A stretch of 30,494 bases of DNA from a virus. This document shows positions 3,228 through 25,361 of the stretch, in pieces. The position numbers were made by a program, and so were the translations under genes. The DNA is taken from positions 1 through 30,494 of IMG/VR virus record IMGVR_UViG_3300021131_000037; one strand, written 5' to 3'. How positions within the stretch are numbered: position 1 is the stretch's first letter; every line of letters starts with the position of its first letter. The notes under the pieces are model-generated. The model saw only the letters and a list, made by a program, of their open reading frames with translations. It did not search any database and had not been told where the DNA came from.

Positions 3228-3965
3228 TTGAATGAGCTACACTTATTTGCAGGAGCGGGGGGGGGTATTCTCGGTGGAATGCTGCTCGGACATACCTGCG
3301 TGTGCGCTGTCGAAATCGAGCCATACTGCCGTGAAATCCTTTTGCAAAGACAGCGCGACGAAGTATTGCCGCGATTCCCAATTTGGGACGACGTGCGAAC
3401 CTTTGACGGCAAACCGTGGCACGGATTTGTTGACGTTGTTTGCGGCGGATTCCCGTGTCAAGACATTAGCACACAAAGCGCCGTGTTTGGAAATCACGCC
3501 GGAATTGACGGTAAGCGCAGCGGATTGTGGCGCGAATACGTTCGCATCATTGGCGAAATACGACCGCGTTTCGCATTCATTGAAAACTCGCCAAACCTTG
3601 TTGTTCGAGGACTCGACCGAGTGCTTTGTGACCTTGCCGCGCTGGGGTATTCTGCTCGATGGGGAATTATCGGAGCAAACGCCGCCGGCGCAGATCACTT
3701 GCGCGAACGTATCTGGATTGTTGCCGACCGTGATGGCTTCCGATTGGAAGGGCGGCACGACGGCGATTCGCAAAGACCGGGGCGACCAGCGATTAGACCA
3801 ATGGCGCGATTACGTCAAATGCAAGTTCGGACTGACTTACCCGCACCCGACGCATTCGGAAATGCGAATGGGTTGGCCCGAAAACTGGACCGACTTAAAG
3901 CCGTTGGCAACGGACAATTTCCAGCAGTGGCAGCACTCGCATGGAAAATACTTTCAGGAAATTAA
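3228..3965 (+). CDS. C5 cytosine-specific DNA methyltransferase
   Basis: Transfers methyl from SAM to cytosine C5. From TTG 3228 the 245-residue product has motif I ELHLFAGAGGGILGG (SAM site, residues 3-17), motif IV GGFPCQDIS with catalytic C77, motif VI ENSP at 119-122, motif VIII-like RERIWIVA at 159-166 and motif X LKAVGNGQFPAVAALAW near the end. The target-recognition region (about 168-215) is short and arginine-rich. No ATG precedes motif I nearby, and MNELHLFAGAGG is the usual N-terminus of phage homologues, so I chose the TTG. A run of nine G at 3257-3265 encodes the motif I glycines. The same DNA encodes another long frame (3232-3972). Probable role: self-methylation against restriction. 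Confidence 0.88.
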   Translation: MNELHLFAGAGGGILGGMLLGHTCVCAVEIEPYCREILLQRQRDEVLPRFPIWDDVRTFDGKPWHGFVDVVCGGFPCQDISTQSAVFGNHAGIDGKRSGLWREYVRIIGEIRPRFAFIENSPNLVVRGLDRVLCDLAALGYSARWGIIGANAAGADHLRERIWIVADRDGFRLEGRHDGDSQRPGRPAIRPMARLRQMQVRTDLPAPDAFGNANGLARKLDRLKAVGNGQFPAVAALAWKILSGN

Positions 3966-3972
3966 CAATTAA
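3232..3972 (+). CDS. Overprinted phage protein, second plus-strand frame over the methyltransferase
   Basis: An ATG-initiated frame of 246 residues that begins 4 nt after the methyltransferase TTG and ends 7 nt after its stop, so the two genes are almost coextensive. The product does not look like a random shadow. It contains ADSRVKTLAHKAP, FASLAKYDRVSHSLKTRQ, TLPRWGILLDGELSEQTPP, SGLLPTVMASDWKGG, HPTHSEMRMGWPENWTDL and KPLATDNFQQWQHSHG. This is the order I associate with a phage protein family usually seen beside C5 methyltransferases (LAKYDxxxxSWKT, WPRWGxMxxGE, PTPxAxDxKG, MGWPxGWTDLKPLA). The motif WTDLKPLATDNFQQW is the shifted reading of the motif X codons of the methyltransferase. Function unknown. 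Confidence 0.6.
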   Translation: MSYTYLQERGGVFSVECCSDIPACALSKSSHTAVKSFCKDSATKYCRDSQFGTTCEPLTANRGTDLLTLFAADSRVKTLAHKAPCLEITPELTVSAADCGANTFASLAKYDRVSHSLKTRQTLLFEDSTECFVTLPRWGILLDGELSEQTPPAQITCANVSGLLPTVMASDWKGGTTAIRKDRGDQRLDQWRDYVKCKFGLTYPHPTHSEMRMGWPENWTDLKPLATDNFQQWQHSHGKYFQEINN

Positions 3973-21630: not shown

Positions 21631-21909
21631 TCAAGCGCAACAATTTTCCCCCGCTTCGGCTTGTTTCTCCGTCTCAATTTGAACATACAAGGCCGCAACC
21701 GGCGCGGACATTTCCCCCGAATGATTCAAGCCAAAAGCTAGGGCATCATCCGCGCGTTCAAACATCCCGCGCGCAACCAAAAATCCACCGTCGCGGACAT
21801 CGCACGCGAATTTTGACGGGTGCGGATTGCCGCACGTTTCCGGGTTCAAGATGGAAAACTTGATTGCGCCGGCGACCTTGGCATATTGCAAAGCGTGGTT
21901 GCGTGTCAC
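21631..21909 (-). CDS. Hypothetical protein, GTG start overlapping stop
   Basis: 92 residues. The start GTG (21909) overlaps the TGA of the LPD29-like gene as GTGA, indicating coupling. Sequence: VTRNHALQYAKVAGAIKFSILNPE, SKFACDVRDGGFLVARGMFERADDALAFGLNHSG, PVAALYVQIETEKQAEAGENC. A small alpha/beta fold is likely. No family recognised. The longer in-frame ATG at 21996 would overlap the upstream gene extensively and is less likely. Confidence 0.6.
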   Translation of the reverse strand: MTRNHALQYAKVAGAIKFSILNPETCGNPHPSKFACDVRDGGFLVARGMFERADDALAFGLNHSGEMSAPVAALYVQIETEKQAEAGENCCA

Positions 21910-22778
21910 AAAACCACCTCGCTTTCTTTGCGGTGCATCAAACTGGAAAGGTATTCGTCCGCGCCTTGCACGCGGCATCCGTTGATCCAGCGCCAAAGGG
22001 CATTTTCATCGGCGAAAGTTTCCGGCACGGCCTCGCCGTATTTCCCCGCGATTGCCCGCGCCAACAGTTCCGCATGGGCGAAAGATAATTCGCGGCTGGC
22101 GGTGACGTATTTTGCGCCATAACGCACGAGCACGCAATCCGGCGCGTGCGCTGAACCGATTTGCTCCGGGCAACTGCCCGCGCTCCCGCCAGTGTCTTGG
22201 GAATGCGCCAGCGACATTTCCCCATCGCGCGAAAGCCAACGGCGTTTGCCGTATTCCATATCAATCATGCCATCAAATCCGGCAAAGGAAAATTCCCGCG
22301 CAATTTCATTCACCGTCGCCGACAACGGGCCATCCGTCCAACTCACGCGCACCGAACATCCGCCCGCGTAATTTTCCGAAGTCACGGAAAATTTTACTTC
22401 GGGAAAATGCTTTTGCAACGTCGCCCGCAAACAAATCGCGGTTTCAGCGGCGGAAATATAATCATTGCCCGCGCGCACTTTGTTCCAGACATCCAACGGC
22501 GTGCGGCATTTGTCCACTTGCCGTTGCGCCGCGTGCGCTTGCTTGGCCGTTTCCCGTTCCCGCACGGCGGCGGCATGGCTGGCGATGCGCGCCCGCGCTT
22601 GCGCCTCATCGCGGAAAGAATAAAACCAATCCGGCTTGGCGCGCTTGCCGGAAAAGGCTTTGGCGGTGATTTTGCCCGCTGTTGGAATGGTGAGATAAGC
22701 CACGGCGGAACAATCCGCCGCGCGAATCTCGATTGAATCTTTGGGAATGTAAAATTCCCTTGTGAATGTCATTTTCAT
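21906..22778 (-). CDS. Polyvalent-protein-like protein with LPD29-type domain
   Basis: 290 residues. About 108-176 reads ISAAETAICLRATLQKHFPEVKFSVTSENYAGGCSVRVSWTDGP followed by FDGMIDMEYGKRR. This is the LPD29 pattern (large polyvalent protein associated domain 29: AxxIRxxLxxxFPxxKFSVxxxxyxGGxSixVxWxDGPxxxxVxxxxxxFxxxxFDGMIDM). LPD domains occur in phage and plasmid proteins thought to act early in the host. The C-terminal part (YGAKYVTASRELSFAHAELLARAIAGKYGE) is unassigned. Shared leader box (variant) at 22783-22800. Confidence 0.72.
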   Translation of the reverse strand: MKMTFTREFYIPKDSIEIRAADCSAVAYLTIPTAGKITAKAFSGKRAKPDWFYSFRDEAQARARIASHAAAVRERETAKQAHAAQRQVDKCRTPLDVWNKVRAGNDYISAAETAICLRATLQKHFPEVKFSVTSENYAGGCSVRVSWTDGPLSATVNEIAREFSFAGFDGMIDMEYGKRRWLSRDGEMSLAHSQDTGGSAGSCPEQIGSAHAPDCVLVRYGAKYVTASRELSFAHAELLARAIAGKYGEAVPETFADENALWRWINGCRVQGADEYLSSLMHRKESEVVL

Positions 22779-22889: not shown

Positions 22890-25361
22890 TCAGGCCGCGC
22901 AAAACGCGGTGGAATTCCCCCCGCCCGTGTCCCCCGCCATCAGCGCCGCCAGCGTTGCCCCAGCACGCTCGAAAATGTCCCGTGCGCTGCCCGGTATCGG
23001 CGGCAATACCACCGGCCCCGTGGCTTCGCGAAACGGGAAATTGCCATTGATAATTTCCCCCCGTTCATCCCGGCGAATGATCCACACCACCGGCGGCGCT
23101 TTGGGCGTCTCCGTTGCGGGCATAGTTTCAACGGGCGCGGCATCCTGGCCACTTTCCCCCCGCACACTACCCGCCTCGATTGACTTTTGCCAGCCGTCCG
23201 CAAATTTGCTTTCCAGTTCAGCGCGGGCAATCTCGAACGGCTTTTCCGGCTCCGGTAACTCAGCCACCAGTGGCGACACCTTTGCCAACTTTGCGGCGCG
23301 CGTGCTGGCAACCTTCGCGCGGGCGATGTCCCGGCAAACTTGCCCAAAATCCCCCCGCAAAGGCATCGCCCAGCCCCCGCGCGCGGGCGCGGTTGCGGTT
23401 ACGCTTTCCGGCTCCGGTTGCGGCGCGGGCGTGGCAACTTTGCGCGGCGCGGGATTGTCAACGGTTGCCACAATCAAACGAGCGGGCGCAATGCCGCTTT
23501 TTTCCACAATATCGGATTTAATCACTTGCGCGGCGCTGGGGACATTTTCCCCCCGCAAGGGTGTTTCTACGCTGGCAACCGGCGCGGCTTTCCGTTGCGC
23601 TTGGCTGGCCTGAATTTTGGATAACCATTTTTCGCAATGCTGGCGGTCCCCAGCGGCCCGCAAGGTTTCCCCCGTTGTCCCGCGCGTGTCGGCTGATTCA
23701 ATCACCATAAACCAAGCGGCCTTGGTAGGATGCGGCACAATAGAACATTCCCGCGTGACGCATTCAACGCGCGCCGGGCGTTGTTCCTCGGCGGTTTCAT
23801 CATTGGCAACCGGCGCGGGCGCGGATGTTCCAACATTGTCAGACGTGACGGCGCTTTTCCAGTCAGACGCAAAACTTGCCACAATGCGGTTTTCCCGTTC
23901 GCTTGCCGTTTCAATTTTTGCCGGTTCAATAGCGGGCGCGGGCGCGCTCGTTTCATTGGTTGCAACTTCGTTTCCCCCCGCAACCGGCGGCGCAATGTTG
24001 CCAACGGGGAAAGCGGGGTGGTTTGATTCTAAAATATGGACCGTTGCGCCCTGGGCGTGTGCATTGTCAATTTGCCGTTGCATAAAATCCGCAACGGGCG
24101 CGCAAAGCATGGCCGGTATTTTTTCGCCGTTCGCTTTCGTGGCGGAAATGACAATTGCACCCCCAGCGGCGGCCGCTTTCGGTTGCGCTTTGCGGCGCGC
24201 GGTGATCGCGGCAACGTAGCTTTGCGCAAAAGCGGCTTTCTTTTCAGCATACCCCCGCACGGCAATGCGGGCGCGGCTATACGGGCGAACATCCATCGCC
24301 GCGCCGATCCGCGCGAAGTAAAGTTTTTCGCCGCCCGCGTGCCGGGGCAATTCCAGTTTTTCGCAATAGCTGGAAAACTCTTTTAGAATTTGCGCCCGCA
24401 AATTGTTTTCCGCCGTGGCAACCAAGTTTTTCAGGGCGTCAAATTTCGGGCCGTAAGTTTCGCTGGGGCGGATATAATCAGTGCGGCCCATTTCCGCATT
24501 TTTTTGGGCGGCATAATCTTTTATTGAAAGTCCCGCGCGCTTGGCGCAACGTAAATCATAGCCGTCCCATTTCATTTGCGGCTTATAGGCGGCAAGGTTT
24601 GAGCGTGCTAGAATAATCGCGCCGTGGCAATCAAACCGCTCCGTGCTGGGGATGTCGAGCGCGCCAAGGCGGGAAATGGTATCGCCAAGGCAAGGAATAG
24701 CCGCCATGGGATTTTTCAGCGCGGCGCGCAACTGGCGGCGCGCGGTGACTATCGCGCGCGCAGTTGCAATCGCGGGCGCAATTCCCCCCGCAACCGTTTC
24801 AAGATTGGCGCAATGTTCGCGGGCAATCACTTTCAAATTTTCTTTCGCCTGATTCTCGGCGGCGCGCAACTTGGCAAACTCTTTCGCGGCTTTCGCGGCC
24901 TTTAAGTTTGCGCTGAGATTTTCCATTCCCGCCGGTTTTTCAAGTTGGAATTCCCCCGTGTGTTTGTCGTCAAATCGGATCGCGGGAACATCTGCCAGCA
25001 ACGCTCGCCACGTTTCGCAGTCAGTCCCGAACCGCATAACCATTTCAGCACGTCCCCCGAACTTGGTGACGCCGATAATTTTGACAGCGCCCTTGTCAAT
25101 TTCCGCTTGCTGGCAATTGTCGGAAAATTCCAACTCAAACCGCGTATCACTGGGGAAAGCCGCAACCCATGTTTTCAGCTTGCCAACGGGCAAAAGCGCG
25201 GTGTTCAAAACTCCGTTCTGGAATTGTAACCGCATAACCTTGTCGGATGTTACCGCGTCAGTGTCGCTGGGGGTGTAACCTTTGCCGCGCAAGTCGCCCG
25301 CGTAAAGCGTGGCAAGTTTTTCGGCCTCAATAATAGTATTTTTTGCAATGGTAGTTTTCAT
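22890..25361 (-). CDS. Very large cassette protein of unknown function
   Basis: 823 residues, not recognised. Three parts are visible: an N-terminal ~1-340 region with well-mixed composition (LPVGKLKTWVAAFPSDTRFELEF, and a helical stretch ENLSANLKAAKAAKEFAKLRAAENQAKENL at about 147-176), a basic central region to ~450, and a long A-, P-, E- and T-rich C-terminal half. The C-terminal half contains two similar segments, ENRIVASFASDWKSAVTSDN (about 490-509) and ELESKFADGWQKSIEAG (about 715-731). Eighteen C-run copies of the polar word lie in it in two codon registers. It starts ATG 25361 after a shared box. A virion-associated or polyvalent injected protein is one guess, without motif support. 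Confidence 0.75.
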   Translation of the reverse strand: MKTTIAKNTIIEAEKLATLYAGDLRGKGYTPSDTDAVTSDKVMRLQFQNGVLNTALLPVGKLKTWVAAFPSDTRFELEFSDNCQQAEIDKGAVKIIGVTKFGGRAEMVMRFGTDCETWRALLADVPAIRFDDKHTGEFQLEKPAGMENLSANLKAAKAAKEFAKLRAAENQAKENLKVIAREHCANLETVAGGIAPAIATARAIVTARRQLRAALKNPMAAIPCLGDTISRLGALDIPSTERFDCHGAIILARSNLAAYKPQMKWDGYDLRCAKRAGLSIKDYAAQKNAEMGRTDYIRPSETYGPKFDALKNLVATAENNLRAQILKEFSSYCEKLELPRHAGGEKLYFARIGAAMDVRPYSRARIAVRGYAEKKAAFAQSYVAAITARRKAQPKAAAAGGAIVISATKANGEKIPAMLCAPVADFMQRQIDNAHAQGATVHILESNHPAFPVGNIAPPVAGGNEVATNETSAPAPAIEPAKIETASERENRIVASFASDWKSAVTSDNVGTSAPAPVANDETAEEQRPARVECVTRECSIVPHPTKAAWFMVIESADTRGTTGETLRAAGDRQHCEKWLSKIQASQAQRKAAPVASVETPLRGENVPSAAQVIKSDIVEKSGIAPARLIVATVDNPAPRKVATPAPQPEPESVTATAPARGGWAMPLRGDFGQVCRDIARAKVASTRAAKLAKVSPLVAELPEPEKPFEIARAELESKFADGWQKSIEAGSVRGESGQDAAPVETMPATETPKAPPVVWIIRRDERGEIINGNFPFREATGPVVLPPIPGSARDIFERAGATLAALMAGDTGGGNSTAFCAA

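Follow-up and report, generated by a model that had tools for sequence, protein, structure and literature searches.

Our study suggests that a single phage locus specifies one C5-cytosine methyltransferase in the form of two polypeptides that share their coding nucleotides, with the second polypeptide, beta, serving as the TRD/motif IX chain, and we place the probability of this reading at roughly 0.87. The locus lies in the window, by which we mean the whole 30 494 nt stretch of viral DNA analysed, and its features are listed in the table below. The first polypeptide, alpha, would supply SAM binding and catalysis through motifs I–VIII, with the catalytic Cys in GGFPCQ, and through motif X, and in place of the TRD and motif IX of a single-chain enzyme would have only a disordered linker. 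Beta would supply that TRD and motif IX from the +1 frame, beginning at an ATG 4 nt after the alpha start, and both chains would be made from one mRNA and assemble into one active enzyme modifying phage DNA. We infer that beta is translated, that the chains assemble, that the enzyme is active and that the first ~60 residues of beta have a role in it.

Features of the overlapping methyltransferase locus in the window
Feature	Position	Strand	Basis
Alpha, C5-cytosine methyltransferase catalytic chain, with motifs I–VIII and X and without IX	3228..3965	+	TTG start inferred
Start codons of alpha (TTG) and beta (ATG, offset by 4 nt), overlapping in TTGAATG	3228..3234	+	+4 ATG conservation, AAT bias
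Beta, 246 aa, +1 frame, proposed TRD/motif IX chain	3232..3972	+	Stop avoidance, codon-position pattern, PHROG 1008 in relatives
Alpha VIII–X linker; in the beta frame, TRD-like stretch (LPTVMASDWKGG onward)	3729..3863	+	Alpha pLDDT, beta codon-position pattern
Beta motif IX-like segment (HPTHSEMRMGWPENWTDL)	3847..3897	+	Motif IX HMM
Alpha motif X (DRLKAVGNGQFPAVA), read in the beta frame as TDLKPLATDNFQQW	3891..3935	+	Translation, alignment

Alpha is 245 aa long when read from its TTG, and its translation contains GGFPCQ, ENS, RERIW and LKAVGNGQFPAV, so that motifs I, IV (PCQ), VI (ENx), VIII (RxR) and X (GN..) of the C5-cytosine methyltransferases are all present. It was matched by PHROG 363 (E=1.5e-55) and by the Pfam family DNA_methylase (E=1.4e-28). 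A preliminary description of this DNA had credited alpha with a complete set of C5 methyltransferase motifs, but motif IX is absent and the Pfam match ends at model position 168 of 324. A single-chain enzyme would need both a motif IX and a folded TRD in the region from motif VIII to motif X, and neither was found in alpha. The AF2 model of alpha was confident for motifs I–VIII and X, whereas residues 172–229 had a pLDDT of <50 and are predicted to be disordered. Foldseek aligned this model to the catalytic domain only of M.HaeIII and M.HhaI (E 7e-15, about 172 columns); the small domain is missing from the predicted structure.

Beta is read on the same strand as alpha, and the two frames overlap almost end to end. 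Both frames exist as the preliminary description reported them, and every beta motif that it quoted is present. The sole PHROG of any length to match beta was 1008 (1.8e-9, 329 positions), which is labelled 'DNA methyltransferase', a family name without a tested function; it also matched 33/33 relatives and was absent from 14 control genomes. Searches of Pfam and NCBIfam with beta gave no match, nor did a search of solved structures with beta or with the beta profile, and no domain was recognized in its N-terminal half. The model obtained for beta alone was poor (pTM 0.29), and a fold search with it found no match. This might be expected of a partner-dependent chain, and the model is not evidence for a fold.

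A tblastn search with beta recovered 23 phage records and 54 viral contigs, and in every locus of this first set the methyltransferase frame lay one base earlier than beta. Matches to the alpha and beta HMMs were both present, in overlapping frames, in 152/152 loci, and an automatic frame test was passed in 85/85 loci. A further profile search with the C-terminal beta motif/IX region, using the C-terminal beta alignment for the genome contigs, confirmed 359 stretches in GTDB genomes and >598 in viral contigs; when the best 80 of each were inspected, 160/160 lay in the +1 frame relative to an overlapping alpha frame, although this set and the 152-locus set share some contigs. No standalone beta was seen among these 160 loci, that is, the best 80 of each scan of viral and genome contigs. 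The claim that the second frame represents a separate protein family, conserved in phages and overprinted on the methyltransferase along its full length, was thus borne out, both frames being kept throughout the homologous loci. The loci came from phages, prophages, one archaeal MAG and bacterial genomes spanning many phyla, and in a few of them (L014, L018 and L038) beta contains an internal stop. Mycobacteriophage methyltransferases had been considered as uniformly single-chain controls, but those of ShroomBoi and Hades have an overlapping frame. The arrangement is widespread in phages and prophages and has one characterized precedent, its breadth being the surprising part; no published description of overprinted phage methyltransferases was found in a search of the literature available without subscription.

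The start of beta was examined across dereplicated loci. An ATG was found at +4 in 93/114 of them, and 92 of these 93 had no beta stop through codon 61, compared to 14 of the 21 loci without the +4 ATG that did have one. Where alpha codon 2 encodes Asn it is AAT in 89/90 N-E loci, compared to 328/891 (37 %) elsewhere in alpha, and the beta ATG is kept where alpha codon 2 encodes His or Tyr. The retention of the +4 ATG and the AAT bias at codon 2 indicate that beta most likely starts at 3232 in the window clade. Alternatively, beta could be made from an internal start near alpha codon 60, as annotated in the Paenibacillus larvae phage Diva, with the +4 ATG being incidental. The first 60 codons of Diva and other distant members do contain stops, and their starts are internal; in addition, beta residues 1–63 are weakly conserved, being open but with an evolutionary pattern dominated by alpha. 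However, neither the stop-free codons 2–61 of the loci with a +4 ATG nor the preference for AAT over AAC at codon 2 would be expected of an incidental ATG, and we consider an internal start unlikely for the window clade, while regarding it as the strongest of the alternatives.

Frameshifts are used by many phages, and a programmed +1 shift after motif VIII would give a fused I–VIII–TRD–IX chain, with beta having no existence as a separate polypeptide. Such a shift would suit both the position of the TRD and motif IX, one frame off from motifs I–VIII and X, and the order of the DNA, which is the canonical VIII–TRD–IX–X. However, a frameshift needs no open beta frame upstream, yet stop avoidance is equally strict in codons 2–60, where stop-making contexts occurred at 1/501 sites versus 90 expected, and the +4 ATG is under selection. 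The fused product would, moreover, still be without motif X unless a second shift occurred. Taken together, these observations make programmed frameshifting improbable.

The assignment of motif IX to beta rests upon a profile that matched 0/241 alpha chains and 238/241 beta chains; as this profile was built from beta sequences, the informative parts are its absence from alpha and the comparison with single-chain enzymes. Two single-chain phage enzymes, ShiLan gp70 and McProf gp6, carry motifs I–VIII, a beta-type TRD/IX segment and motif X in one frame. The ALT3 HMM matched between motifs VIII and X in loci L315 (1.3e-5) and L318 (1.2e-5), and the motif IX HMM matched L318 at 2.2e-7. In Rebeuca, Tophat and TaylorSipht, the TRD/IX segment and motif X lie on a partly overlapping second gene. 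On these profile comparisons, the C-terminal half of beta is judged homologous to the in-frame TRD/IX segment of single-chain enzymes, and the TRD is probably also on beta. A function for beta unrelated to methylation, for example in counter-defence or regulation, would require the resemblance to motif IX to be coincidental. The N-terminal half with no recognized domain leaves some room for this, but it is hard to reconcile with the in-frame occurrence of the same segment in single-chain methyltransferases, with the lack of motif IX in every alpha chain or with the ability of motif X to move to beta, and we regard it as very improbable.

Such a move of motif X was seen in L058, L217 (Paraburkholderia) and L222 (an archaeal MAG), in which alpha ends after motif VIII and motif X follows motif IX in the beta frame. 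L058 sits within a clade that otherwise keeps motif X in alpha, so that, at least there, the move appears to be recent. Tandem WPTPxxxD-type units were also observed in the beta frames of L041, L047 and L217, with several in L217, which suggests that the gain and loss of such units may alter the length of the recognition sequence. With regard to the origin of the pair, we lean towards derivation from a single-chain gene by paired displacement of frames, in which the TRD/IX part would have slipped by one frame and beta would then have gained a start beside that of alpha.

The preliminary description knew of no functional account of the second protein, but beta is best read as a TRD/motif IX chain, for which there is a precedent in M.EcoHK31I (YGGCCR), a two-polypeptide C5 methyltransferase whose large chain has motifs I–VIII and X and the predicted TRD, and whose smaller, second chain holds motif IX (PMC3404938). 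The window family resembles this enzyme in having motifs I–VIII and X on alpha and motif IX on a second chain, a likeness drawn from the published motif description. Lee et al. (1995) reportedly described the coding sequence of the M.EcoHK31I small chain as nested, in a different frame, within that of the large chain, which would match what was found in the window family. The two differ in that the predicted TRD of M.EcoHK31I is in the large chain, whereas the TRD-like stretch of the window family is in beta, and in that the window beta matches alpha in length, its start lying 4 nt beyond the alpha start. By analogy, the window family would work as M.EcoHK31I does. In M.AquI (CYCGRG), a split C5 methyltransferase, motifs I–VIII are on one chain, and the recognition part and motif IX are on the other (PMC3404938). 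L058, L217 and L222 show the same split of motifs; however, the second chain of M.AquI also has motif X, which in the window stays in alpha, and the window genes overlap almost completely. An annotated likeness is found in the P. larvae phages Diva (gp49/gp50) and Leyra (gp61/gp62), which have a +1-frame gene nested in a C5 methyltransferase gene. Both genes of each pair are named DNA methyltransferase, the beta HMM matches these loci, and Diva gp50, nested in gp49, is annotated both as 'g49 internal gene' and as 'DNA methyltransferase'. They are distantly related to the window pair, and about 60 codons of alpha precede the start of their nested gene.

Selection upon beta was further quantified at the codon level. 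The window alone gave modest values, with a stop-free beta frame arising at P=0.0014 under synonymous permutation of alpha and at P=0.027 under the codon usage of the window's other genes. Across relatives, however, the evidence was overwhelming. Within-gene synonymous permutation of 43 dereplicated loci predicted about 214 beta-frame stops beyond codon 2, and about 11 were observed, whereas the +2 frame held 658 stops versus 572 expected. Among 93 dereplicated alpha genes, Leu/Val/Ile contexts that would create a beta stop were found at 3 of 2693 sites, whereas neighbouring genes on those contigs would predict about 558. Met followed by a codon starting with A, which makes a beta stop unavoidable, occurred at 0/367 opportunities in alpha and at 259/984 in controls. 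Between motifs VIII and X, the rates per codon at alpha positions 1, 2 and 3 were 0.336, 0.183 and 0.196 in 27 independent pairs of relatives, in comparison to the ordinary pattern of 0.141, 0.081 and 0.336 in neighbouring genes. The fastest site, alpha position 1, is beta position 3, which indicates that beta, and not alpha, is the protein seen by selection in this region. In alignments of relatives, the alpha reading of the linker is unconserved, whereas the TRD/IX reading in beta is conserved.

The window beta scored 322.6 bits against the beta HMM, whereas the best of 200 synonymous shuffles of alpha reached 195.4. The shuffled genes still averaged about 98 bits, ~30 % of the beta profile score, and part of the apparent conservation of beta is therefore a shadow of alpha, chiefly in the LPRWGMM-like stretch, which is the +1 reading of alpha DLAxLGYDARWG. 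Furthermore, z-scores based upon shuffling overstate significance because the loci are related, and dereplication reduces this kinship without removing it. Even so, a beta that is never made, owing both its openness and its similarity among relatives to the alpha protein sequence and codon usage, is barely credible in the face of the synonymous shuffling, the avoided stop contexts, the stop-filled +2 frame, the beta-like codon-position rates in the linker and a linker that is conserved only as beta. The possibility that matches to beta are methyltransferase shadows under no selection was contradicted by these codon contexts and position rates, and the proposal that each frame constrains the other was upheld by the stop avoidance and the codon-position pattern. 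We therefore regard beta, on this codon-level evidence, as a real, selected protein and no shadow. Separately, the +1 frame over motifs IV–VIII of the ShiLan single-chain enzyme (L315, 881–1339) resembles beta with a score of 63.3, compared to a shuffled maximum of 62.8, and may be a remnant or pure shadow.

Long same-strand overlaps in which both proteins are identified are rare, and here the products appear, on present evidence, to be two halves of one enzyme. As annotation pipelines keep one frame, the 'orphan' phage methyltransferases that belong to this family are routinely recorded without the chain that should set the target site, and specificity predictions made from alpha alone would be empty. 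The family also offers hundreds of natural replicates for the study of dual-coding selection, split-enzyme evolution and the transfer of domains between frames.

The window is a contig of a temperate tailed phage, in which an integrase, a DnaC-like loader, an SSB, a terminase, a portal, a head protease and a major head protein were recognized, and the alpha/beta pair is located in the early/replication block. Among the ORFs scanned, none beside the pair was recognized as a restriction enzyme, which suggests that the pair likely serves to protect phage DNA as an orphan modification enzyme. In Vibrio phage 1.091.O (L004, 3152–3711), a second, separate C5 methyltransferase gene lies just downstream of the overlapping pair. 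Elsewhere in the window, a minus-strand ORF at 21906–22778 carries an LPD29 domain (Large polyvalent protein associated domain 29; E=1.2e-18), and an 823-aa ORF at 22890–25361, also on the minus strand and opposite in direction to the structural genes, had no PHROG or Pfam match.
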